Shown here piece by piece: positions 755 to 47,752 of a stretch of 47,752 bases of DNA (its first letter is position 1; each line of letters opens with the position of its first letter). The notes beneath the pieces are model-generated. The model was not told the DNA's origin. It ran no database searches and saw nothing but the letters and a program-made list of their open reading frames with translations. Made by a program: the position numbers and the translations under genes. Source of the DNA: Planctomycetota bacterium (GTDB taxonomy: Bacteria; Planctomycetota; Phycisphaerae; UBA1845; Fen-1342); contig JACRLV010000027.1 in NCBI GenBank assembly GCA_016235145.1, positions 1 through 47,752 of the forward strand, written 5' to 3'.

Positions 755-3039
755 ATGCGCGCTCCCCATACTGATTCGTTCCACCTGAAGCTTCTCCTTG
801 TTGCCGCTTTGGCCGCTGCGATCGTGCACGAAGCCCTGGCCCGGAACACGTATCGTCGCGAGTTCTTCGACGCCTACCCTCAAGCGACCAATACGCGGTT
901 GGATCGCATCGGCGGAACTCAGCACTGCGGCGTCTGCCACTATGACTTCAATGGCGGCGGAACACTGAATCCATATGGTCTGGCGGTTCAGGCGACGCCG
1001 AACCGAACCGCCGCGCGAATCTCGGCCAAGTGACCAACGTCGACATCTTTCAGATCAACGGATACGTCACGCCCGCGTGGGGCAGCGACACGACACCGCC
1101 GGAGGTGACCGTTCTCTTTCCCAACGGCGGCGAGACGCTCGGCAGCAGTTCGCAGCAGACGATTCAATGGACGGCGACTGACAATCGGGGCGAAATCGCG
1201 TACGTCAACATTTATGTCACATTCGACGGCGGCGCCAATTGGGATCCGCTGGCCCTGTTTGCCCCAAACACCGGCTCGTTCACGTGGTTCGTCCAGAACC
1301 GGCCGACCGCGCAGGCGCGGATCAAGATCGACGTTTTCGATCCATCCAACAACCAGGCTGCGGACACCAGCGACGCCTTCTTTACGATCGCCTCGACCGC
1401 GACCGGGCGCGTGCCGACCACGCTCCGCGACTTCGACATGCCCGGTTCGCAGGCGTTCGACGCGGGACCGATCAATTCGCCGGCGGAGTGCCGCGTGTGC
1501 CACGGCGACTACAACCTGGCGGTCGAGCCGCACTTCAACTGGCGCGGCACGCTGATGGCGTACGCATCGATCGATCCGATCTTCCTGGCCGCGATGGACG
1601 TTGCCAACCACGACGCTCCGGAATCCGGCGATCTGTGCCTGCGTTGCCACATGCCGCGCGGCTGGTTGCAGGGCCGCAGCACGCCCACCAACGGTTCGCA
1701 GATGCTCGCGGACGATCGCATCGGCGTCGCCTGCGCCCTGTGCCATCGGTTGGTGGATCCGATCTACCAGGCCGGCGTCAGCCCGGTCGAGGACGAGCCG
1801 ATCCTGGCGGCGTTGCGCTCCGTGCCGACGCATTACACTTCGGGCCAGATGGTCGTCGATCCGAGCGAATCCCAGCATCGCGGTCCATACGAAGACCCGG
1901 TCACGCCGCACGAATTCCTCTACTCGCCTTTGCACAGAGAGGCGGAAGTTTGCGGCATGTGCCACGACGTGAGCAACCCGGTGTTCGTGCGGCAGCCCGA
2001 CGGCACCTACCTGCCCGGCGCATTCGATCAACCCGCCGCCGACTTCGGATCACACCAGATCGGTCCGGCGGAGCGCACGTACAGCGAGTGGTTCTTCAGC
2101 GCGTACAACACGCCGCAGGGCGTTTACAACCCCGAGCTTGGCGGCAATCGCGACTATGTCACCGTCTGCCAGGACTGCCACATGCGGGCAGTCACCGGGC
2201 AAGGAAGCGGCCTGCCCTTCGCCCCCGAGCGCAACGACCTGCCGCTGCACGACATGACCGGCGGAAGCGTTTGGCTTACCGACGTGCTGGATCAATTCGA
2301 TCCTTCGGTCGACAAGCCGGCTTTGGACGCCGCCATTATCCGCTCGCGGTACATGCTTCAGCATGCGGCGCAGCTTGAGCTTCAACAGGTCGCCGGTCAG
2401 CTCGAAGTCAGGGTGATCAACCGCACCGGCCACAAGCTGCCGACCGGCTATCCGGAAGGCCGCCGCATGTGGCTGCGCGTGCAGTTCTATGATGCCCGCA
2501 ACCGACTCGTCGGCGAGTCCGGCCAGTATGACGCGAACACGGGTACGCTCGTGCATGACTCGCAGATCAAGGTATACGAGGCGATGCCGGTGATCGGCGA
2601 GAACATCGCGCCGGTCGTCGGATTGCCGGCCAACACCGAGTTCCATTTCGCGCTCAACAACAAGATCTTGAAGGACAACCGCATTCCGCCGCTGGGCTTC
2701 ACGAATGCGGCGTACAACTCCGTCGGCGCGGCGCCGGTCGGAGCGGTTTATGCCGACGGCCAGAACTGGGATTCTTCGCTCTACGCGATCCCGCGCCGGG
2801 CCGTCCGGGCGGAGGTCACGCTGCTTTACCAATCCATGAGCAAGGAGTTCGTCGAGTTCCTGCGCGACAACGCGACGACCAACGGAATCGGCATGCAGCT
2901 TTACATGCTCTGGGCCGGCAACGGCATGTGCCCGCCGGAAACGATGGCCAGCGGAACGATCGGCGTAACGTCACTCGGCTCGGCCGGAACGCCGACGCGA
3001 GTGATTCCGAGCGGCGCGACGCAAATACCGCCGCCGTAA
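755..3039 (+). pseudogene. Multihaem c-type cytochrome, disrupted by frameshift
   Basis: Two ORFs read as one broken secreted cytochrome. The first (755-1033, 92 aa) has a strong GGAGGA site, a signal-peptide-like N-terminus and one haem site, CGVCH (Cys58, Cys61, His62). It ends about 30 residues later. The second (frame open from about 946, ATG at 1030) continues in another frame with an Ig-like segment around residues 22-121 (PPEVTVLFPNGGETL), then five CXXCH sites: CRVCH, CLRCH, CALCH, CGMCH and CQDCH. That is six haem sites in all. The stretch expected between the first haem module and the Ig-like part seems shortened, so a deletion with frameshift near 985-1030 is likely. A sequencing error cannot be excluded. 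If intact it would be an exported electron-transfer protein. A terminator hairpin follows. Confidence 0.7.
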
Positions 3040-3124
3040 GAGGGCGCGAGCGGGGCATCCGCGGCGATTCGCTGCACGCAACGGTCCCCGGCCCCATGTC
3101 GGCCCAAGCAACCATCGGAAGTTC

Positions 3125-3164
3125 GCGGGCCCTGGAGGATTGCCGATCCAGGGCCCGCTGTTTT
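3125..3164 (+). terminator. Rho-independent terminator after the cytochrome gene
   Basis: There is a perfect 12-base stem (3125-3136 with 3147-3158, GCGGGCCCTGGA/TCCAGGGCCCGC) with a 10-base loop, followed by TGTTTT. It lies 85 bases after the cytochrome stop codon and before the next gene, in the right place to end that transcript. Confidence 0.75.
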
Positions 3165-3336
3165 CCGGTGCGCCTGCGTTTGCGTCGAAAACCACATTGA
3201 TTGGCAAAAACACCCACTCATTCGACATCGTGTCAAAGCGCCGGCTTCAGCTTGCTGCAAGCGCTTGCATGCGACCGAGGCCGGGTGGAAAATGGCGCGC
3301 GCACAATTCACCATCCTCGTTGCAGGAGAAGCGAAA

Positions 3337-3888
3337 ATGGAAAAGAACGAGTTTCTGGTCCAGCAGTTCGCGACGTTGCGCCACGAGATCGAAGGTCACC
3401 AATCAAGGTCGTTCTGGATCGTGGTGATCGGACTGCTGGGGATTCCGACCGCCAGTTACTTTCTGCTCGAGGCGTCGATTCCGCTCTGGATGGCGCTGCC
3501 GTTCTTCCTGCTGGTGCTGATGGTGCTCTTCCTGGCGCAGCAGAATTTCATGATGCGGGCCGGGCGCTACATCCGCGAGTACATCGAGCCCAAGATGGAA
3601 TGCTCGCCGGGCTGGGAAGCTTGGATCGAATCGCGGCCGGCTTTCCGGGTCATGGATCGACAGTTCGCCGGTTCGCTGCTGGTTCTGTTCTTCCTGTTCT
3701 ACTTCCTGTTGATCGGCTTGGCGCTCAACCGGCTGTATGACCAGGCGCTGTCCAATCCCGGTTTGGGCAACTGGATGATCTTCGGAGCCGCGGCGGCGGT
3801 CTATACGATTGCGACGCTGTTCGGATTCGCGACGCTGATTCATCATTGGCGCTCCTCCGTGAGCACCATGCCGAATCAGAAACCGTAA
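3337..3888 (+). CDS. Four-helix membrane protein, unknown function
   Basis: The start at 3337 is chosen because AGGAGAA at 3324-3330 lies six bases upstream; the longer frame from 3265 has no such site. The 183-residue protein starts with a charged segment (MEKNEFLVQQFATLRHEIE). It then has two helices close together near residues 24-64, a soluble loop of about 50 residues, and two more helices near 109-132 and 141-168. This two-plus-two layout resembles small planctomycete membrane proteins of unknown function. No active-site motif is seen. Its 3' end overlaps the convergent minus-strand gene by 13 bases, so the two genes lie tail to tail. Confidence 0.65.
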   Translation: MEKNEFLVQQFATLRHEIEGHQSRSFWIVVIGLLGIPTASYFLLEASIPLWMALPFFLLVLMVLFLAQQNFMMRAGRYIREYIEPKMECSPGWEAWIESRPAFRVMDRQFAGSLLVLFFLFYFLLIGLALNRLYDQALSNPGLGNWMIFGAAAAVYTIATLFGFATLIHHWRSSVSTMPNQKP

Positions 3889-4685
3889 AGGGCAGCCGGT
3901 TGATGTGCGGTCTTGTGCGGCGTGCGGCGCCGCAGCGGCGGGCGGCCGACTCGCACCGCAACCAAGGCGGCCGGCACGAAGAAGGCTGGTGCGGATGGCT
4001 CCGGCACGGTCCACAGCCAGTAGTCGTATCCGACCGGCGCCGGGTTCCAGTACGTGGCGTTCGCGATTCCCGGGGCCGCCGTGCCGGTGCTCCAATGCGC
4101 CAGGAGAAATGCGTCGGCGGGGTGGTCCTCGGTGACGAAGTACGGGTACAGGTCGCCGCTGGGCAAGTAGCTCAAATAGTCGACCGCAATGCGGGCCACG
4201 TATCCGTCCAAGCTGGGCGGCAAGGGCGGTTCAGGAATCGGCGCGAACCAGATCACGTTGCACTCGGTCGGCGTCAGGACCGGATCGGCCGCGTGCGGTT
4301 CGTAGCTGCCGGCGAGTTCCGCGCCGCAGTTGTCGAATCGGGCGGGGGAGTCCCGGCGGCGCGGCTTGCTGACCATGTTGACGAACCGATCATTGGCGGA
4401 GCCGGTGTTGATCAGGTTCGGCTGCAAACCGGGCGTGTTCGCATCGCCGTCGGCGTAGCGGAAAAAGCAGCCGTTCAGCGCCGTCACGCGCATCCCCGCC
4501 GCGGTCCACACGTCCGTCGTCGCCACGTCGACGTACACATCAACGACCACGACATGCGGCGGCGCGGGCGGACCGTCAACGCCGTGCTGATACACGCTCA
4601 TGATTTCGGTGACCTGTGCGCCGGCGGGCGGACCGAATGCGAGCCACGCCCCGAGCTCGAGCATCAGGTGAGGGAGGCGCGTCAT
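3876..4685 (-). CDS. Secreted protein with a PEP-CTERM-like C-terminus
   Basis: The 269-residue protein starts with a short signal-peptide-like stretch ending near AGAQ (residues 21-24). An AGGAG site lies six bases before the ATG. The body (about 25-225) is acidic, Pro- and Tyr-rich and has three cysteines; I do not recognise its fold. Residues 227-254 match the layout of a PEP-CTERM sorting tail: VPEP, a modestly hydrophobic stretch (FFVPAALVAV) and an arginine cluster (LRRR). In PEP-CTERM proteins this tail is processed by an exosortase. Here the hydrophobic part is weak and about 15 residues follow the arginines, which is longer than usual, so a small 3' frame change is possible. No exosortase gene is in the window. 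Confidence 0.6.
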   Translation of the reverse strand: MTRLPHLMLELGAWLAFGPPAGAQVTEIMSVYQHGVDGPPAPPHVVVVDVYVDVATTDVWTAAGMRVTALNGCFFRYADGDANTPGLQPNLINTGSANDRFVNMVSKPRRRDSPARFDNCGAELAGSYEPHAADPVLTPTECNVIWFAPIPEPPLPPSLDGYVARIAVDYLSYLPSGDLYPYFVTEDHPADAFLLAHWSTGTAAPGIANATYWNPAPVGYDYWLWTVPEPSAPAFFVPAALVAVRVGRPPLRRRTPHKTAHQPAALYGF

Positions 4686-4905
4686 GCAGTGCTCCTGTCG
4701 GCGGAGATGATGATCCCTGATACGGTCTCAAGTGATTTTAGGTGTCCGGCCTGGTGACGTGGTAAAGTCCATCGTGTGGCATGCTGACCGTGGCGCACCC
4801 CCATCGGCTAATTCTAGTCGACGGCGGGATGATCAAGGGAAATCCGGTTCGCATTGTCTTGCGTGAGATCGAGAATCTGGTCGAATGGGCGCGAGGGAGG
4901 CCAAC

Positions 4906-6327
4906 ATGACGCCGTTACTTGTCGTCCTTGCAATTGTACAGGCTGCGTTGGTCGGCGCCGGGCAGGCGGCCGAGGACGGGTTCAGCTTGGATCGGCCGTC
5001 TGCCCTGCAAGCGATGGAGCAGGCCCGGCGCTCGATCACTCGCGCCGACATTCGCTGGTCGCGCACCGACTATTTCGACCAGTTTGCTCCCGGAATGAGG
5101 AAGCAGTATCGCAGTCGTTTCGCCGGAAGCGATAGTGCGTTCGACAACGACGGCGTCGATGGCGGCATTTACGGCGTCGAGGGCGGAATCGCCGCGTGGC
5201 GGGAGGGCGGCAAGCCCATTCCGGAATCGCGGAACGCGTGTCTGTTTCGCGAGACGGACGCTTGGATGCTGGAGACGGACTATCTGATTGGCGAGACGTC
5301 CTCGCGCGAGAAGTCGCCGTATGTGTCCTTGGATGTGCGAAACATCGGACTGCTTCCCGTTCCGCATCTGGCCGCTTCCGTGGCCGAAGCCATTTGGAAC
5401 TATCCCGCGGAAGACAGCAGCGAGCGTCTGTATCGGCAGCGCATCCGCGACGGGATCTACGAAGTGGAATTGAAGCTTCCGCACAATGATACGCTGATTC
5501 GCTGGGAAATCGATCCGTCGAAAGGCTGGAACCCCGTTCGATCGCAGTATGTGTATCGCGGGCGCATATTCACCGAATGCCGCAGCGATTATGTCCTGGA
5601 GGGCGGAACGTGGTTTCCCACCGGCGTCACGTATTTCGACATCGCCGGGAACATCGTCACGCAACTGGACGTCGAGTCGCGGGAGATTGGGGGCGACCGG
5701 CTTCCCGATTCGCTCACGCCGGAATCCATCGGCTTCGGAACGGGAATGCAAGTCAAGGTGGATGGGGCAAGCGAGGTAAAGGTGTTCGTTGCAGGCAAGC
5801 CGCCCGTGGCTTCTGACGAATACCTGCGGTTGCGCAAAGAGGGCGCGGTTCAAACCGATCCACGCCTGATTGAGCGTGGGAAGGAGTTGATGCGGCGATC
5901 TCAACTCGCCGCGGCGGGTGCCGAGAATTCCGGCGGTGGGCCGCCTGCTGCCGGGCCGGCCTCGCAGCCCGCGATCGTTCCCAACAAGGTTGATGACGAA
6001 TGGGAGCGCTACACGCGCGAGTTCATTCATCGTTATGCTCTCGATTCCGAGCAACGGCAGAAGGCGCAACTCATCCTGCATGAGTGCCAGGAGCGACGAA
6101 CGACCTACCTGCGCACCAAAAAGGACGCTTTGAACAAGATCGAGATGAAACTGCTGTCCAAGCCCGCTGACAGCGAAAAATCGCGTGTGACGGAACAAGT
6201 CGCCGAAATGCTGAAGCCCGTCGAACGCATCTTCGAGGAGCAACTGAAGCCTCGTTTGGATCGTCTCCCCACGCGCGCCCAACGGGAAGCCGCGAAGAAA
6301 GATGCCCCGGCGAACAACCCGAAATAG
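4906..6327 (+). CDS. Secreted protein with helical C-terminal region, unknown function
   Basis: The start at 4906 is preferred over 4885 because GAGGGAGG (4893-4900) ends five bases before it, and the N-terminus MTPLLVVLAIVQAALVGAGQ is then a clean signal peptide. The mature part (about residues 23-345) looks beta-rich and resembles secreted outer-membrane or periplasmic proteins of planctomycetes, but I do not recognise a named domain. A Pro/Ala/Gly linker near 345-362 precedes a charged helical segment of about 110 residues. That segment (LDSEQRQKAQLILHECQERR and onward) recalls Spy/CpxP-like periplasmic helical proteins; this comparison is weak. No catalytic motif was found. The gene stands alone on its strand. 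Confidence 0.6.
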   Translation: MTPLLVVLAIVQAALVGAGQAAEDGFSLDRPSALQAMEQARRSITRADIRWSRTDYFDQFAPGMRKQYRSRFAGSDSAFDNDGVDGGIYGVEGGIAAWREGGKPIPESRNACLFRETDAWMLETDYLIGETSSREKSPYVSLDVRNIGLLPVPHLAASVAEAIWNYPAEDSSERLYRQRIRDGIYEVELKLPHNDTLIRWEIDPSKGWNPVRSQYVYRGRIFTECRSDYVLEGGTWFPTGVTYFDIAGNIVTQLDVESREIGGDRLPDSLTPESIGFGTGMQVKVDGASEVKVFVAGKPPVASDEYLRLRKEGAVQTDPRLIERGKELMRRSQLAAAGAENSGGGPPAAGPASQPAIVPNKVDDEWERYTREFIHRYALDSEQRQKAQLILHECQERRTTYLRTKKDALNKIEMKLLSKPADSEKSRVTEQVAEMLKPVERIFEEQLKPRLDRLPTRAQREAAKKDAPANNPK

Positions 6328-14095: not shown

Positions 14096-14318
14096 AGCGA
14101 GCGCAAACGCGAGTCGTTCGATTCGCGTACGTGAGTAGGAAATCTCCGGGGTGTGCAGGTCGGCGGCTATGGCCGACCCCGGGGTGTGCCGAGATCCACC
14201 CCCGCCTGACGCGACCCGCGCTGGCCTGGGCGGGTCGTTCGATCCTCGCGCTGGCTTGCGGCGCCAGTTTTCAACCGGCGTTCTTGCACGTTGCGGGAGA
14301 GGCTCCTGGTACTTCGTT

Positions 14319-14439
14319 AATGCATAATTCCCGGGGAGCATCGGCGTCTCGCCGGTATTCACCGGCTGGCGCCAATGCCTGCCGGCGAGACGCCGATGCT
14401 TACCGGCGAGACGCCGATGCTCCCCGGAAATCATGCATT
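14319..14439. repeat. Long palindromic repeat, 39-base arms
   Basis: Arms at 14319-14357 and 14401-14439 are reverse complements with only two mismatches. The loop carries a further copy of the core (GGCGAGACGCCGATGCT, near 14384-14400), so the right side holds the core twice in tandem at a 21-base spacing. It is non-coding and sits between convergent genes. Confidence 0.8.
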
Positions 14440-14480
14440 GACAGACCACTAGTGTAGCTAGTCAGAAATAGTGCATCACG

Positions 14481-17015: not shown

Positions 17016-19763
17016 TCAGCGGCTTTGGGCCTGCAACAGCTCCGCCTGCTTCACCAGCGTCAAAAACTCGGTCCGGTAACGATCGGGATCGTCGCCGAGC
17101 GAGGTCAGGGCCGTCTCCGCGATCGCATCGAGCGTCCAGCCGTCGGCGAACGGCGTGCCGCGGAGTTTCATCGCAAAACCCGCTACCGCCGCCGCGAAAC
17201 GAAACTCCGGCGAAGCTTCATCAAACGACCCTGATGCGTCATCCAGCGCGAATTCGATTCGCCGGCTCTGCTCGCCTTCGGGCGCTTTGTAGCGAAGTTT
17301 GAGCGTCAGAAGCTCAAGCTGCTCGCCCGACGCCGCCGCGACGAGCTGCGCCGGCGTCTGGTACTTCAGCGGATCGATCTCGGGATCGGGAGCGAGCATT
17401 TCGGGGGTTTCGGCGGCGAGGTCGATCGGCGTGGGCGGCGGCGGGACGACGTCGTTCAGCGTCTCCGCCCTCACCCCAGCCCTCTCCCGGAGTACCGGGA
17501 GAGGGAGCCAACCCTCCCCCTCTCCCGGTACTCCGGGAGAGGGCTGGGGTGAGGGTGCATTTCTCCGCCCCCAAGCACCAGCGCGCGGGGCCGAACCGGC
17601 AGCCGAGGGCGGCTGCGGTACATCAGCCGAGGGCGGCTGCGGTACACCAGCCGAGGGCGGCTGCGGTACATCAGGCAGCGTGCCTCCCGCCGGCACGATT
17701 TCGTACAGCGCCGTCACCGTGTGCCCCGCCCCGATTTCGCCGGCGTCTTTCGTGTCGTCGTTGAAATCGCGGGCCGCGAGCATGCGGTTCTCGTATCCCA
17801 GCAGCCGGTAGCCCGCGACCGCCGCGGGGTTGAATTCGACCTGGATTTTCACGTCCTTGGCGATGGTCTGGAGCGTGCCGCCCATCTGCTCGACGAGGAC
17901 CTTGCGGGCTTCTTCGATCGAGTCGATGTAGGCGTAGTTGCCGTTGCCGCGGTCGGCGAGCGTTTCGAGCGTCGCGTCTTTGAGATTGCCCATGCCGAAG
18001 CCGAACACGCTCAGGAAGACGCCGGTCCTGGCCTTCTCCTCGATCAGCTTCTGCAAATCGTCGCGATTGGCGACGCCGACGTTGAAGTCGCCGTCGGTGC
18101 AGAGGATCACGCGGTTGATGCCGCCCTGGATGAAGTTCTCCGCCGCGATCGCGTAAGCGAGGTTGATGCCCTGGCCGCCATTGGTCGAGCCGCCGGCGGA
18201 GAGGTTGTCGAGCGCGGCTTCGATCGCGGCCTGCTCGCGGGCCGGCGTCGATGGCAGCACGAGGCCCGACGCGCCCGCGTAGACCGCCAGCGCGACGCGG
18301 TCGTCGTCGCGCAGCCGGCCGAGCAGCAGCTTGAGCGACTCGACCACCAGCGGCAGCTTGTTCGGCGGTTGCATCGAGCCGGATACATCCAGCAAAAAGA
18401 CCAGGTTCGCGGTCGGGCGCTGCTCTTCGGACGGCTCCCAGCCGCGCAGCCCGATCCGCACCAGGCGGTGTTGCGGCGCCCACGGGCAGGCGGCGAGTTC
18501 CAGGTTCGCCGAAAACGGCGCTTCGCCGTCAGCGCCGGCGTCGGCGTCGGGCGGCGGATACCGCACGGCGGACGGCGGCGGAAGCTGGCCGCTCAGCAGA
18601 TAGCGGCGGATGTTGGCGTAAGAGGCGGTGTCTACGTCAATCGAGAAGGTCGAAAGCGGATTCGCTGACGCGGGCAGGAAGGGGTTGTGGTAGATGGGGC
18701 TGTACGCTTCGGCGGAGTCGATCAGGGCATCAAGATCCGGCAGACTGCGGACTTTGAATAGCGCTTCGCCCGCTGATTCGGAGCCGCCGCCGTAGCCGAG
18801 TTCGGCGATCTTGTCGCGCACAAAAAGCGAACCCAACGCGGGAATATCGCCAAGCACCGGGAGGCCGAAGCTATCCCCCGACTCAATTTGCTTCGTCTGA
18901 TCCGCCCCGTTACGACCATAAATCAGGTAGCCGCCCGCTTGGAACTCCACTCCCGAAGGCTGATTCGCACCCCTGCGAGATAGAGCGGCCAGAATCTTCT
19001 GACTATCGCCTGCCGACAAATTATCAAGTTTGAGCACTACTGAGTTCTCAGCCTCAAAGTCACCTCCGTAGCCGAGCGTGCCAAGTTGTCTTGGCCCGTA
19101 GAATCCCTCAACCTCGGTGCGAAAGGCCTCGCGCGCAACCAGGCGCTCGTTCGAGTTTGTTTTGCCGTAGGGCAACTGATAGCCGTAACTGAGGTGTCCT
19201 TGCGCGGGAAAGTCGAAGCGGTTCTCTGGGTACGGGGTGGCTTGCGATTCAGCCGCAGCGCTTGTGCCCATCGAGAGCAGCCACAAGCTGGGCTGAGAGG
19301 CGGGTTGTTCCACGGCAGGCGGAGGAATGTCCGATCCGAGAAAGGCCGACACGCTTGTCCGGTTGGCGGTTGTGTCTGAACGAGTTGACGGCAACAGAAA
19401 ACCGGTCCCAATCAGCCCAATCGCTGCGGCCGCTGCGGCGAGGCTGGTCGCCCAGAATTTGATCGCGCCCGGCGCTGAGCGCGCTATGGCGGACTCAGGC
19501 ATCGGCAGCGATGATTCGGCGCCTCGCACGTCCAAGCTGCTTGCGCCCTCGGTCAGCCGCGCCCGCCGAAGGTCGTCCAGCATCAGCGCCGGCTCGGCCG
19601 CCAGGCTCGCGCTGAGCCGATCCGCGGCGGCGCGGATTTGCTCGGCGGCGTGGCGGGCGGCCGGGTCGGCGGCGAGCAGGGCTTCCACGTCCGCCTGCTC
19701 GGACGGGTCCAGTTCATTCAGCACGTATGCGGTCAGGCGCGGGTCGTTTTCCAGGCGAGTCAT
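17016..19763 (-). CDS. Membrane-anchored VWA (YfbK-type) protein with anti-sigma-like N-terminus
   Basis: The ATG at 19763 (GAGG five bases upstream) gives 915 residues. Residues 1-55 (DPRLTAYVLNELDPSEQADV) resemble the short cytoplasmic N-terminus of planctomycete anti-sigma-like proteins. One transmembrane helix is at about 103-126. Residues 296-314 contain GLPVLGDIPALGSLF, like the secretin signature. The YfbK N-terminal domain follows (NPLSTFSIDVDTASYANIRR, 368-387), then a VWA domain with intact MIDAS DVSGS (459-463) and a C-terminal DUF3520-like region. Residues about 698-768 are an inserted linker encoded by two kinds of DNA repeat. VWA domains bind protein partners through a metal ion. 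The ECF sigma gene upstream suggests the pair form a signalling unit; this is inference. Confidence 0.85.
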   Translation of the reverse strand: MTRLENDPRLTAYVLNELDPSEQADVEALLAADPAARHAAEQIRAAADRLSASLAAEPALMLDDLRRARLTEGASSLDVRGAESSLPMPESAIARSAPGAIKFWATSLAAAAAAIGLIGTGFLLPSTRSDTTANRTSVSAFLGSDIPPPAVEQPASQPSLWLLSMGTSAAAESQATPYPENRFDFPAQGHLSYGYQLPYGKTNSNERLVAREAFRTEVEGFYGPRQLGTLGYGGDFEAENSVVLKLDNLSAGDSQKILAALSRRGANQPSGVEFQAGGYLIYGRNGADQTKQIESGDSFGLPVLGDIPALGSLFVRDKIAELGYGGGSESAGEALFKVRSLPDLDALIDSAEAYSPIYHNPFLPASANPLSTFSIDVDTASYANIRRYLLSGQLPPPSAVRYPPPDADAGADGEAPFSANLELAACPWAPQHRLVRIGLRGWEPSEEQRPTANLVFLLDVSGSMQPPNKLPLVVESLKLLLGRLRDDDRVALAVYAGASGLVLPSTPAREQAAIEAALDNLSAGGSTNGGQGINLAYAIAAENFIQGGINRVILCTDGDFNVGVANRDDLQKLIEEKARTGVFLSVFGFGMGNLKDATLETLADRGNGNYAYIDSIEEARKVLVEQMGGTLQTIAKDVKIQVEFNPAAVAGYRLLGYENRMLAARDFNDDTKDAGEIGAGHTVTALYEIVPAGGTLPDVPQPPSAGVPQPPSADVPQPPSAAGSAPRAGAWGRRNAPSPQPSPGVPGEGEGWLPLPVLRERAGVRAETLNDVVPPPPTPIDLAAETPEMLAPDPEIDPLKYQTPAQLVAAASGEQLELLTLKLRYKAPEGEQSRRIEFALDDASGSFDEASPEFRFAAAVAGFAMKLRGTPFADGWTLDAIAETALTSLGDDPDRYRTEFLTLVKQAELLQAQSR
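17468..17555. repeat. Perfect inverted repeat inside the VWA gene, 38-base arms
   Basis: Arms at 17468-17505 and 17518-17555 are exact reverse complements around a 12-base loop. Each arm also folds on itself (CTCTCCCGG-AGTA-CCGGGAGAG). The element is in frame and encodes Pro/Gly/Glu-rich linker sequence such as APSPQPSPGVPGEGEGW. A near-identical arm occurs at 42359-42396. Confidence 0.9.
17600..17671. repeat. Three 24-base tandem repeats inside the VWA gene
   Basis: Units at 17600-17623, 17624-17647 and 17648-17671 are identical except for one T/C change at the last base. They encode the repeated peptide DVPQPPSA/GVPQPPSA on the minus strand, next to the 38-base inverted repeat. Confidence 0.92.
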
Positions 19764-20104
19764 AAGAACCTCGGTTTCTCTGTCTTCACAAAAAACACTA
19801 CGCACGGCGCCGGCGGAACGGAAGTCTCCTCGCTTGCGCTTCGGGCTCGGAAATGCCGGCCCCGCGCGCTGGCGCTTGGGGTTCTGTTTTTCGTTCGTGC
19901 ATCGAATTACGGGCTGGAGGCCCATGCTCCCCAATTACCGGCTGGAAGCCGGTGCTACCCATTTACGGGCTCGGAGGCCCATGCTCCCCAATTACCGGCT
20001 GGAAGCCGGTGCTACCCATTTACCGGCCCGGAGGCCCATGCTCCCCTTCGTGCCTTCGTGCCTTCGTGCCTCCGTGCCTTCCTTCTGTCTGCGTGCCTTC
20101 GTGC
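19764..20104. other. Repeat-filled gap between sigma factor and VWA genes
   Basis: These 341 bases separate two genes that are transcribed in the same direction. No gene is supported. The gap holds a 57-base tandem repeat and an octamer array, listed separately. The ribosome-binding site of the VWA gene (GAGG) lies just before 19763. Confidence 0.5.
19908..20046. repeat. 57-base tandem repeat, about 2.4 copies
   Basis: The element CCCATGCTCCCCAATTACCG recurs at 19921 and 19978, and its first ten bases again at 20035, giving a constant 57-base period. Each unit contains the palindrome ACCGGCTGGAAGCCGGT. Copies are nearly identical, with small changes only in the GGGCTGGAGG portion. Confidence 0.88.
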
Positions 20105-20799: not shown

Positions 20800-20872
20800 G
20801 TAGCGTCGGACCTCCGAGTCCGGCGACGCGACTGCGGCGAAAAACACTTCGGATACGCAGGTCCGACGCTTC
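20800..20872. repeat. Palindromic repeat shared with 47445-47519
   Basis: The first 23 bases (20800-20822) are identical to the left arm of the element at 47445. The right arm near 20855-20872 carries the complementary AGGTCCGACGCTTC, but the copy is decayed in the middle. It lies upstream of the gamma-carbonic-anhydrase-like gene. Confidence 0.75.
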
Positions 20873-40666: not shown

Positions 40667-42349
40667 ATGGGTCTCACCACCGCGATGTACACCGGCCTGT
40701 CGGGTATGAACGTCAACCAGACGCGAATCGACACGATCGGCCACAACATCGCCAACGTCAACACCACGGCGTTCAAGAGTTCCCGCACGCTGTTTCAGTT
40801 TCAGCTCTCGCGCATCCTTTCGGGCGGCAGCGCGCCGTCCGAAACGACCGGCGGCACGAACCCGACCCAGGTTGGGCTCGGGGCCGTTGTGGGCTCGACG
40901 CAACGCGACATGACGCCCGGCTCGGTCGAGACCACGGGCATCAACTCCGACGTCGCCATTCAGGGCGCCGGAATGTTCGTCTTGCAGCGCGCCGACGGCC
41001 GGCAGGTCTACACGCGCGACGGCGCCTTCTCGCTCGACGCCAATAACCGGCTCGTCTCGATGGACGGCCACGCCGTTCGCGGTTTCGCGGTGGACTCGAA
41101 CTTCAACGTCGTGCCCGGCGTGCTTTCCGATCTCACGATCCCGGTCGGCACGCTCTCCATCGCACACGCCACGCAGAACGTCACGCTCGACGGCGATCTC
41201 AGCGCCGGCGGAACGATCGCCACGCAGGGCTCCACGCATGCGACGCAAACGCTGGTCGACGGCGGCGGAGGGCTTGCGGCCGCCGGCACGGCGCTGAGCG
41301 ACTTGCGCGACGGCGCCATTCCCGGAACCACGCTTTTCGCCGCCGGTAATACCATCACCGTGTCGAATCTCACGCGCGGCGGGCGCGTCCTGCCGCCCCG
41401 CTCGTTCGTGATCGGAACCGACGGCAGCACGCTCGGCGATTTTGCGACCTGGCTCCAATCCGCGGCGGGGATCGACATGACGGCGGGCGTGCCGGGTACG
41501 CCGGGCGTGACGATCGAGAACGGCCAACTCGTCATTCGCGGAAACGCCGGCGAGGCGAACGCGCTGGGAATCGACGCGAACGTGGTCCGCAGCGACAACG
41601 GCGGCGGCTCGCTGCCGTTCACATTCACGCAAACCGCCGAAGCCAATGGATCGGGCGTTTACACGTCGTTCACCGCTTACGATTCGCTTGGCAACGCCGT
41701 GGTGGCGAATGCGTCGTACGCGCTGGAGGCCCTGACCGCGACCGGACCGGTTTGGCGCTACTACCTGACCGCGCCCGACGGCGCCGGCGTGCTTCAGGCG
41801 ATCGGCACGGGAACGGTCAGCTTCGACAACAACGGGAACTACGTCAGCGCCACCGGCAATCAGTTCAATCTCGATCGATCCGGAACCGGCGCGACTTCGC
41901 CGCTTCAGATCACACTCGATTTTTCGCAGATCAACGGCCTTTCGACGGAGCTTTCCAACGTGATCGCCGCCTCGCAGGACGGCTATCCGCCGGGAACGCT
42001 GGCGAATTTCGGCATTGGCGTGGATGGCACGGTTTCGGGCACGTTCACGAACGGGCAGTCCCGCACGCTGGGACAACTCGCCGTCGCCGTCTTTTCGAAC
42101 GACGAAGGCCTGATCGCCGACACCGACAACAACTACCTGAACGGCCCCAACAGCGGCGAGCCGGTGATCACCACGCCGGGGCTGACCGGAGCGGGCCAGA
42201 TGATGGGCGGCGCGCTGGAGCTTTCGAACGTCGATCTGTCGCGTGAGTTCATCGGCCTGATCACTTCGAGCACGGCGTTTCAGGCGGCCAGCCGCGTCAT
42301 CAGCACTTCATCGGACATGCTTGATCAACTGCTGCTGATCACGCGGTAG
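40667..42349 (+). CDS. flgE: Flagellar hook protein FlgE
   Basis: This 560-residue protein starts with AAGGAA upstream of the ATG. The N-terminus has the rod/hook motif YTGLSGMNVNQTRIDTIGHN (residues 8-27) and NVNTTAFKSSRTLFQ. The C-terminus has GALELSNVDLSREFIGLITS, then TAFQAASRVISTSSDMLDQL, as in all hook proteins. Between them lies a large middle region (about 130-480) that is longer than the enteric form and should be the exposed part of the hook. FlgE forms the flexible joint between basal body and filament. It is the last gene of the cluster in the window. Confidence 0.95.
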   Translation: MGLTTAMYTGLSGMNVNQTRIDTIGHNIANVNTTAFKSSRTLFQFQLSRILSGGSAPSETTGGTNPTQVGLGAVVGSTQRDMTPGSVETTGINSDVAIQGAGMFVLQRADGRQVYTRDGAFSLDANNRLVSMDGHAVRGFAVDSNFNVVPGVLSDLTIPVGTLSIAHATQNVTLDGDLSAGGTIATQGSTHATQTLVDGGGGLAAAGTALSDLRDGAIPGTTLFAAGNTITVSNLTRGGRVLPPRSFVIGTDGSTLGDFATWLQSAAGIDMTAGVPGTPGVTIENGQLVIRGNAGEANALGIDANVVRSDNGGGSLPFTFTQTAEANGSGVYTSFTAYDSLGNAVVANASYALEALTATGPVWRYYLTAPDGAGVLQAIGTGTVSFDNNGNYVSATGNQFNLDRSGTGATSPLQITLDFSQINGLSTELSNVIAASQDGYPPGTLANFGIGVDGTVSGTFTNGQSRTLGQLAVAVFSNDEGLIADTDNNYLNGPNSGEPVITTPGLTGAGQMMGGALELSNVDLSREFIGLITSSTAFQAASRVISTSSDMLDQLLLITR

Positions 42350-42358
42350 TGCGGTCAG

Positions 42359-42396
42359 CCCTCACCCCGGCCCTCTCCCGGAGTACCGGGAGAGGG
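42359..42396 (+). repeat. Hairpin repeat after flgE, shared with the VWA gene
   Basis: These 38 bases match the arm at 17468-17505 except for one base. They contain the stem CTCTCCCGG/CCGGGAGAG with a 4-base loop. The element lies ten bases after the flgE stop and could help end transcription of the flagellar operon; no T-run follows. Confidence 0.82.
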
Positions 42397-42461
42397 GGCA
42401 GCGGCCCGCGCTTTCGCACGGCCGCGTTTTCGCGCGGCGGCGTTTTCGCGCAGCGGCGCTT

Positions 42462-44102
42462 TCAGCGTTTCAAAAAATCGACAGCGCTCGGAATGCGGAG
42501 TACGGGAAATTCGCCGCCCGGCTTGGCGCCTTCGTCAAAGTAGTTCCACGCCGCCAGCCCGTCGTCGCACTGCGGCTCCAACATGTAAACAACGAGGTTT
42601 CCAAGCCGCTGCCCGGTCCGCACGAGAATCGTTCCCGCTGGAAGCGTGCGTTTTTCGCTGTGGCGGACGCCGTCAAGATACGCCAGCTTGTGGCCTTGAA
42701 ACGGCATCAGGCTGTGCTTTGCGGTTTCGATGGAGAACACTTCCACCGGGCACTCGACGGAGCCCGAAAGCTCGGCGATTTCCACGCCATGCTGGCGGAG
42801 TTTCTCGATCACCCTCGTCTCGCCTGTCGGTATCGCGTACGCGAACGGCCGCGGCACGCTCACGGTCGGCTTGTAATGCGTCCAAAGCTCGACGTTGTAG
42901 TCATAGGGCTGTGAAGTCGGCTTGCTGTGCCCGTTCTGAAGCTCCTCGATGAATCCGGCGGCCGGCGTTTTCTGCGGCGCTGCAATGACCTCGCTGCGCA
43001 AGGCGATATCGTTGCGTGGCGTGGCTGCGGCCGCTGCGATCGTCTCGCGGTCGACGTCCGCAAGCCTGGTGCGAATCGCCTCGCGATTGGCGGCGGCGAA
43101 TTCGAGGATCGACTTCACGAAATCGCGCGTCCCCAGCACGCGCGTCTTGTATGTCGCGTAGGAATAACCCTCGGAAAGCACGCTGATCCGCCCGCGCAGC
43201 CCGACGTAGCTCGTGCTGTACCGCGCCTGAGCCGGATAGGTTTCCCATTTCGTGTGCGCGAGATTGAAATCGCCGTAGACGAACGACGGCACCTGGTATT
43301 TGGCGAGCATGTCGCGCGCAATCGCCGGCATCATCTCGTCGCGGCACCAGCGAATCAGCCCGGCGTTCCCGGCGAGGCACTTCGGGCCTTCGTAGGTGAT
43401 CACATAGCGATGCCAGCAGCCGTTGGTGGTGTGCGTGTCGATGAAGATGTGCGGATCCCAGCGGTTCAGAAAATCAACCAGCGCCCGAGTCTCCGGCGCT
43501 TCGAGCTTGATGAAATCGCGGTTCAGGTCGAGGCCGGCGGCGTTCTCGCGCCGGCCCATGCCCTCTTCGGGGCCGAGCTGGCCGGGCCGGTTGTCGGGCG
43601 AGACGCGCTCGTTGCCGTCCGCGTTGTAAATCGGCGCAATCGCGAGGATTACGCTACGAAGCAGCGGATGATGCGGCGTGAGCAGCAGCTCGCGCGCGAC
43701 CATCGGCAGCGCTTCCTTCCCGTCGACCTCGCCGGCGTGAATGTTGCCGATTGCGAAGACGAGCAGCTTGCCGTCGTTTTCGATCTGGCGGCGGGCCTGC
43801 TCGGGCGTCGCCACGGGCGGGTCGGCGATGATCAGCAGCGGCAGCGTGCGCCCTTCGCCGCTCACGCCCAACTCGCCGCGTTTCGCCAGCGGCGAGGATT
43901 CGGCCAGTCGATCCAGCAGTGCAACCACCTCGGCGTGCCGGGCCGTCGCGCGGTATTCGGATCGCTCGGCCGTCGTGAGAAGCGCGGCGGGAATCGGCGG
44001 ATCGCCACCAGCCGCTTCAGCTGACGGAGCGAGGATCACTGCTGCCAGTGCGGTTGCCAGCTGCCGGAAGAGCCGCCGACGGATGGGGTGCTTTTGCGTC
44101 AT
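42462..44102 (-). CDS. Secreted M14-family zinc carboxypeptidase
   Basis: The ATG at 44102 starts a signal peptide (about residues 9-31, LFRQLATALAAVILAPSAEA); the frame from 44180 extends past it. No clear ribosome-binding site precedes this ATG. The 546-residue product has the M14 metal and substrate residues: His122 and Glu125 in GNIHAGEVDG, Asn194-Arg195 in LDLNRDF, and His224 in FIDTHTTNG. M14 enzymes cut residues from the C-terminus of peptides, or cell-wall peptides, using zinc. A C-terminal region of about 200 residues has no identified domain. It is divergent from the repeat-protein gene and may feed peptide uptake. Confidence 0.87.
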   Translation of the reverse strand: MTQKHPIRRRLFRQLATALAAVILAPSAEAAGGDPPIPAALLTTAERSEYRATARHAEVVALLDRLAESSPLAKRGELGVSGEGRTLPLLIIADPPVATPEQARRQIENDGKLLVFAIGNIHAGEVDGKEALPMVARELLLTPHHPLLRSVILAIAPIYNADGNERVSPDNRPGQLGPEEGMGRRENAAGLDLNRDFIKLEAPETRALVDFLNRWDPHIFIDTHTTNGCWHRYVITYEGPKCLAGNAGLIRWCRDEMMPAIARDMLAKYQVPSFVYGDFNLAHTKWETYPAQARYSTSYVGLRGRISVLSEGYSYATYKTRVLGTRDFVKSILEFAAANREAIRTRLADVDRETIAAAAATPRNDIALRSEVIAAPQKTPAAGFIEELQNGHSKPTSQPYDYNVELWTHYKPTVSVPRPFAYAIPTGETRVIEKLRQHGVEIAELSGSVECPVEVFSIETAKHSLMPFQGHKLAYLDGVRHSEKRTLPAGTILVRTGQRLGNLVVYMLEPQCDDGLAAWNYFDEGAKPGGEFPVLRIPSAVDFLKR

Positions 44103-47444: not shown

Positions 47445-47519
47445 GTAGCGTCGGACCTCCGAGTCCGACGATTGTATTCCCCACCGGTTTTGCCGTCGGA
47501 CTCTGAGGTCCGACGCTAC
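47445..47519. repeat. Palindromic repeat with 26-base arms
   Basis: Arms at 47445-47470 and 47494-47519 are reverse complements with a single mismatch around a 23-base loop. The first 23 bases are identical to 20800-20822. It lies between the divergent desulfurase and lipoprotein genes. Confidence 0.85.
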
Positions 47520-47641: not shown

Positions 47642-47752
47642 ATGTCGCCCAAGTGCTTTCCGGTATTGTTGTCCGGAATCCTGCTCTTCGGATGTAGTCA
47701 GAATTCCGGGCGCACAACAGCACAATCCCCCCCCCCCCCCCCCCCCCCCCCC
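47642..47752 (+). CDS. Lipoprotein, N-terminal fragment (partial)
   Basis: The frame begins at an ATG with GGAG six bases upstream and reads MSPKCFPVLLSGILLFGCSQ, a lipoprotein signal ending in a lipobox-like LFGC. After about 28 residues the sequence becomes a run of C that would encode polyproline to the window edge. The real protein continues beyond it, or the run is an artefact. Only the export signal can be interpreted. Confidence 0.5.
   Translation, partial: MSPKCFPVLLSGILLFGCSQNSGRTTAQSPPPPPPPP
47727..47752 (+). repeat. Poly-C run at the window edge
   Basis: Twenty-six consecutive C residues end the window, inside the lipoprotein frame. This may be a real homopolymer at which assembly stopped, or a poly-G read artefact of two-colour sequencing seen on the other strand. 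Confidence 0.9.

Follow-up and report, generated by a model that had tools for sequence, protein, structure and literature searches.

BoxC and related palindromic repeats

The BoxC element has been known from Escherichia coli since the 1990s, and we know of no account of the means by which it spreads. Holder et al. (2015; PMC4666352) described the motif, TM_ECO, as a pyrimidine arm, a purine arm, a short linker and an antiparallel purine third strand, with sequences such as CCCTCTCCCTGTGGGAGAGGGCCGGGGTGAGGG (their Table 1). They found no stable triplex in vivo and no transposase for the motif, and the copies of MG1655 were reported as always intergenic. The GTAG/CGTC REPs that occur with RAYTs (Di Nocera et al. 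2013; PMC3733652) resemble the BoxC copies of the present study in size, palindrome, abundance and placement, and also in their inverted dimers and occasional in-frame gene copies. By contrast, BoxC has neither the tag nor an adjoining RAYT, and the genome studied here contains, in addition, true GTAG families, of which two come with a RAYT of their own. The Rickettsia palindromic elements (RPE), which PMC3733652 also cites, are by description likewise in-frame palindromic repeats in unrelated conserved proteins; RPE-4 and RPE-6 have been assigned to CGTC families (PMC3733652). The BIMEs and REPINs of E. coli and Pseudomonas are mosaics of short palindromic repeats, as here, and REPIN-like inverted doublets occur in genomes related to ours, whereas the copies of our genome are mostly single.

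We analyzed a stretch of 47,752 nucleotides (the window) from a Planctomycetota bacterium, in which a 38-base sequence recurs. Judged by its sequence, the element is the known E. coli family called BoxC, PIT element or G/C-rich intrastrand triplex motif. We assign a probability of about 0.85 to its being a BoxC member, a palindrome of ~40 bp with a purine third segment, that would have spread as a non-autonomous element through a folded single strand. The family itself is known; what is notable here is that, unusually, some copies lie in frame inside working genes.

Copies of the element in the window

The earlier note on this DNA had reported that 42359-42396 and 17468-17505 differ at a single base. 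Both sites were re-read, and the sequences are indeed identical at 37 of 38 bases, with a G/A difference at position 11 of the 38-mer. Its statement that one copy is coding also holds: the copy falls within the YfbK_C-coding region of a VWA gene, and orthologs confirm the reading frame on both sides. The minus strand holds a third copy (17518-17555), which had been missed. It forms with 17468-17505 an inverted pair of 38 bp, 100% complementary with 12 nt between the arms, which folds far better than shuffled sequences (z -14.8). The 26-base core has no match in dinucleotide shuffles of the window, and Rfam gave no match in the window. The features are listed in Table 1.

Table 1. Repeat copies and neighboring genes in the window
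Feature	Position	Strand	Remarks
BoxC/triplex-motif copy 3' of flgE	42359..42398	+	genome-wide profile: head CCCTCACCCCGG, hairpin CCCTCTCCCGGAGTACCGGGAGAGGG, tail GG
BoxC copy within VWA gene	17468..17507	+	antisense to gene
Third BoxC copy, in VWA gene	17516..17555	-	sense to gene; inverted partner of 17468-17505
flgE, flagellar hook protein	40667..42349	+	stop codon 9 bp before BoxC copy
M14-type zinc carboxypeptidase gene	42462..44102	-	convergent with flgE
Repeat family E (GTAGCGGCCCGCGCTTTCGCGC-like)	42398..42419	+	abuts BoxC tail; same junction at 5 copies
Repeat family B (CCCCGCGCGCTGGYGCTTGGGG)	17569..17590	-	upstream of VWA BoxC copy, nearly usual register
Repeat family C (TACCGCAGCCGCCCTCGGCTG), three copies	17600..17668	-	24-bp tandem, in frame in VWA gene (VPQPPSA peptides)
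YfbK-type VWA gene	17016..19925	-	repeat cluster in variable linker of YfbK_C domain

Any role of the copy on the flgE side is most likely minor, that of a hairpin where two genes converge at their 3' ends. Other repeats are present in the window as well: GTAG-tagged REP copies occur at 20800-20825 (+) and at 47445-47470 (+) with 47494-47519 (-), and belong to the family with 388 places in the genome whose RAYT gene is on contig C337. A separate inverted repeat occupies 14316-14442, with arms of 51 nt that are 88% complementary and 25 nt apart. It is of the GGCGTCTCGCCGG type and resembles the repeat at the RAYT of contig C117. The window ends in an unbroken run of C (47727-47752), which probably arose in assembly where the contig stops.

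Copy number and shape of the element

The assembly comprises 4.6 Mb in 392 contigs and is 82% complete. When up to 3 mismatches were allowed, the element matched 116 places and a reversed-pattern control none, which excludes the case that the window held the only two copies in the genome. About 100 copies were read individually and 102 were classified. The copies have the dimensions of a REP, a palindrome of 20-40 bp with many dispersed and mostly intergenic occurrences. In a profile of 85 good copies, conservation runs from column -13 to column +27, counted from the hairpin, in the order head CCCTCACCCC, two purines, palindrome CCCTCTCCCGGAGTACCGGGAGAGGG and RG; it is limited to the three segments of the triplex motif and a tail of 2 nt. 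Outside these columns a weak upstream TGAAAATGCG gives way to background. Neither a GTAG nor a CGTC tag is present at either end of the profile.

No part of the hairpin is available to the head for Watson-Crick pairing. The head is nevertheless conserved like the stem (95-100% per base), with the flanks dropping to background, as would be expected if it were a third strand. The hairpin is stable as single-stranded DNA in fold computation.

The purine-rich strand reads CCCTCTCCC-GGTACTCC-GGGAGAGGG-YY-GGGGTGAGGG and thereby follows the E. coli BoxC pattern CCCTC(T/G)CCC - loop - GGGAGAGGG - 2 nt - GGGGTGAGGG (PMC4666352, Table 1); the E. coli sequences of the same study agree with the window element outside the loop. 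The two have in common the stem, the head, the linker, a class II purine-triplex layout and the lack of a linked transposase; placement is mostly intergenic in our genome and was reported as always intergenic in MG1655. Our copies are mostly single units of type B, with the same CC-GGGG linker as type B in E. coli (PMC4666352). The commonest stem departure is also the same in both: the 'mm' subtype of E. coli, a G.A stem mismatch (T-to-G), affects the same triad as in 12 of 88 of our copies, which carry CCCTCGCCC in place of GGGAGAGGG with one mismatched triad. A 46-base query from the window matched 4,367 of 5,426 E. coli genomes, at a median of five places, and the copies read directly agree. 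The differences lie in a stem longer by two G-C pairs, in the loop (AGTA), in copy number (about 116, against 23 in MG1655) and in fixed joins to other repeat families.

Genomic placement and repeat mosaics

For 92 classifiable copies, placement was read from the gene calls of a codon-based caller that had been trained on the fetched sequences. Intergenic copies number 80 (45 between unidirectional, 19 between divergent and 16 between convergent genes), and the remaining 12 are inside called genes; some of these 12, close to gene starts, may owe their place to a wrongly called start site. Other repeat families often adjoin the copies at constant distances: family B (CCCCGCGCGCTGGCGCTTGGGG) starts 47 bases upstream of the hairpin in 18 copies and 34 downstream in 7, family C (TACCGCAGCCGCCCTCGGCTG) lies at 36 upstream in 10, family E at 27 downstream in 5, and a GTAG family at 38-39 downstream in 7. 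These fixed-offset joins are a BIME-like mosaic, and one locus, on contig C261, is a tandem array with an 80-bp period.

Mosaics in fixed register and tandem 80-bp arrays of this kind would also be produced by recombination or template switching between existing repeats, through gene conversion or replication slippage and without a dedicated enzyme. The lack of a linked transposase fits this explanation, as does the local instability to which Holder et al. tie the motif (PMC4666352). However, isolated copies in unrelated flanks, some of them in genes with no homology nearby, call for an insertion step, and simple recombination between repeats does not include one. We regard this explanation as possible, with the odds somewhat against it.

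The favored explanation is spread as a non-autonomous element. Given a palindrome with a purine-rich third segment, a single purine-rich strand could form a hairpin and then turn back on it to give the predicted triplex. The element would be copied through this folded single-stranded intermediate, either in the course of replication or by an enzyme supplied in trans; new copies would tend to land beside other repeats, and insertions into genes would survive in flexible linkers and in frames free of stops. Target-site duplications were not found at the copies, where linkers are variable and no close strain provides an exact empty site. No transposition event was seen, and no transposase gene is linked to BoxC.

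Distribution in other genomes

The exact element was found in none of 20 relatives tested, and its amplification is therefore recent on the scale of genera. In relatives of the same class and order the head and arms are unchanged and the loops differ: GGA is found in genome G218, and loops of the TGAA/TGGA/TCGA type in genome G018. The earlier note had proposed a dispersed element that moves or is copied, and the ~116 near-identical copies in unrelated flanks, together with this absence and the lineage-specific loops of other genera, bear it out. Among named records, the exact 26-mer occurs mostly in Phycisphaerales and other Planctomycetota, and in one Bacteroidota and one gammaproteobacterial assembly. 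The window query also matches scattered proteobacterial plasmids, with scattered copies only and no linked transposase in the annotated regions read.

Several carrier genomes contain inverted doublets, some of which oppose a type A head (CCCTCACCCTAA) to a type B head, as in E. coli. Such A+B pairs, which characterize E. coli, were seen in these other carriers alone and not among our own copies. The layout also differs: the pair in the window has its hairpins inside and its heads outside, while the doublets of relatives show the opposite arrangement. In the one-contig genome G018 (loci L253 and L254), BoxC doublets have a similar inner spacer at several sites, and two of the doublet sites share a longer, MITE-like flank.

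RAYT genes and a possible terminator function

The earlier note had suggested a search for a RAYT-type transposase elsewhere in the genome. RAYT genes are present: there are seven Y1_Tnp matches, and three proteins pass the NCBIfam RAYT cut-off. Their association with the element was not supported; two of them carry other, GTAG-tagged REPs. The RAYT on contig C337 lies between GTAG REPs GTAGCGTCGGACCTCCGAGTCCGACG, of a family with 388 places in the genome, and that on contig C117 between GTAG REPs GTAGCGGCCGGCGTCTCGCCGGCC; the RAYTs with identifiable repeats thus belong to families other than BoxC.

Could BoxC still be a REP that a REP-associated tyrosine transposase, encoded at another place in the genome, excises and reinserts? 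Several RAYT/IS200-type proteins are coded in the genome, a cognate gene could lie unseen in the ~18% missing from the assembly, and the head GGGGTGAG conforms to GGGGWSAS, a motif that goes with certain TIR-associated tyrosine transposases (PMC3733652). Against this, no BoxC was found near the Y1_Tnp genes examined in the 82% complete assembly, and in 19 other carrier genomes BoxC did not flank any Y1_Tnp locus that was read; the one copy at ~0.7 kb from a Y1 gene (locus L175) is at chance level. In the one-contig relatives the nearest Y1 gene is 104 kb (G018, with 42 copies) and 80 kb (G333) away from BoxC, so that no copy comes within 79 kb of one, and the tags of RAYT-linked families are missing from the element. 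Mobilization by a RAYT is therefore improbable, and the term 'RAYT-mobilised' is not supported for the BoxC copies. RAYT-linked repeats and BoxC coexist in this genome, yet are separable, so the mere presence of RAYTs is no reason to attribute all REP-like families of a genome to them.

It is more improbable still that the copies are intrinsic transcription terminators or mRNA 3' stabilisers kept by selection rather than mobile DNA: the hairpin is strong, the flgE copy follows the stop codon by 9 bp and 16 copies lie between convergent genes, but a terminator scan at the flgE copy found neither a T run nor a terminator-like site, divergent genes flank 19 copies and another 12 are within genes, the E. 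coli versions had no terminator activity (PMC4666352), and neither a conserved unpaired head nor fixed joins to other repeats would be expected of terminators.

Copies inside genes

In-frame BoxC is found in at least five protein genes: those of the VWA/YfbK protein, valyl-tRNA synthetase, class II ribonucleotide reductase, a Cas1-like and a heparinase-like protein. As MG1655 copies were reported to be always intergenic (PMC4666352), the copies in genes are the main departure from the known BoxC family; for other REP families, copies in frame have been described (PMC3733652). The cluster in the VWA gene (three C, one B and two BoxC repeats) adds roughly DVPQPPSAGVPQPPSADVPQPPSAAGSAPRAGAWGRRNAPSPQPSPGVPGEGEGWLPLPVLRERAGVRAE to the predicted protein between YEIVPAG and DPLKYQ, where the orthologs have a shorter variable linker and lack the insert. 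The valyl-tRNA synthetase gene has a BoxC-C-B cluster encoding PSPRPSPGVPGEGVPQVPQPPSAANSAPRAGAWGSD, and its nearest ortholog (genome G008) passes from RHHELIW to PLIVAPWP through a short stretch without the insert. Five of the six BoxC reading frames contain no stop. The PSPxPSPGVPGEG frame is common to the VWA, valyl-tRNA synthetase and Cas1-like genes and, to judge from its composition, would suit a flexible linker, with small numbers at three genes.

A broader proposition is that BoxC spreads actively without a dedicated transposase and forms modular mosaics, in this lineage yielding in-frame linkers rich in Pro, Gly and Ser in conserved and even essential proteins; we hold this to be rather unlikely as a whole. 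With about five times the copy number of MG1655, and with in-gene copies whose orthologs are uninterrupted, the genome offers a way to ask how BoxC inserts and how it affects proteins.

The called start of the VWA gene passes through a B repeat (19860-19925 of the window; peptide QNPKRQRAG), and the true start is probably near amino acid 55 (MTRLEND). The valyl-tRNA synthetase gene (2336-5506; locus L044, G000:C366) contains a second insert, a tandem PPHNAT repeat that is absent from orthologs. An ARRHEGTQG-like peptide repeat, with 29 DNA matches in ~405 kb, is in frame in the ribonucleotide reductase gene (L089, G000:C241) and in a pilin-like gene (L072, G000:C339).
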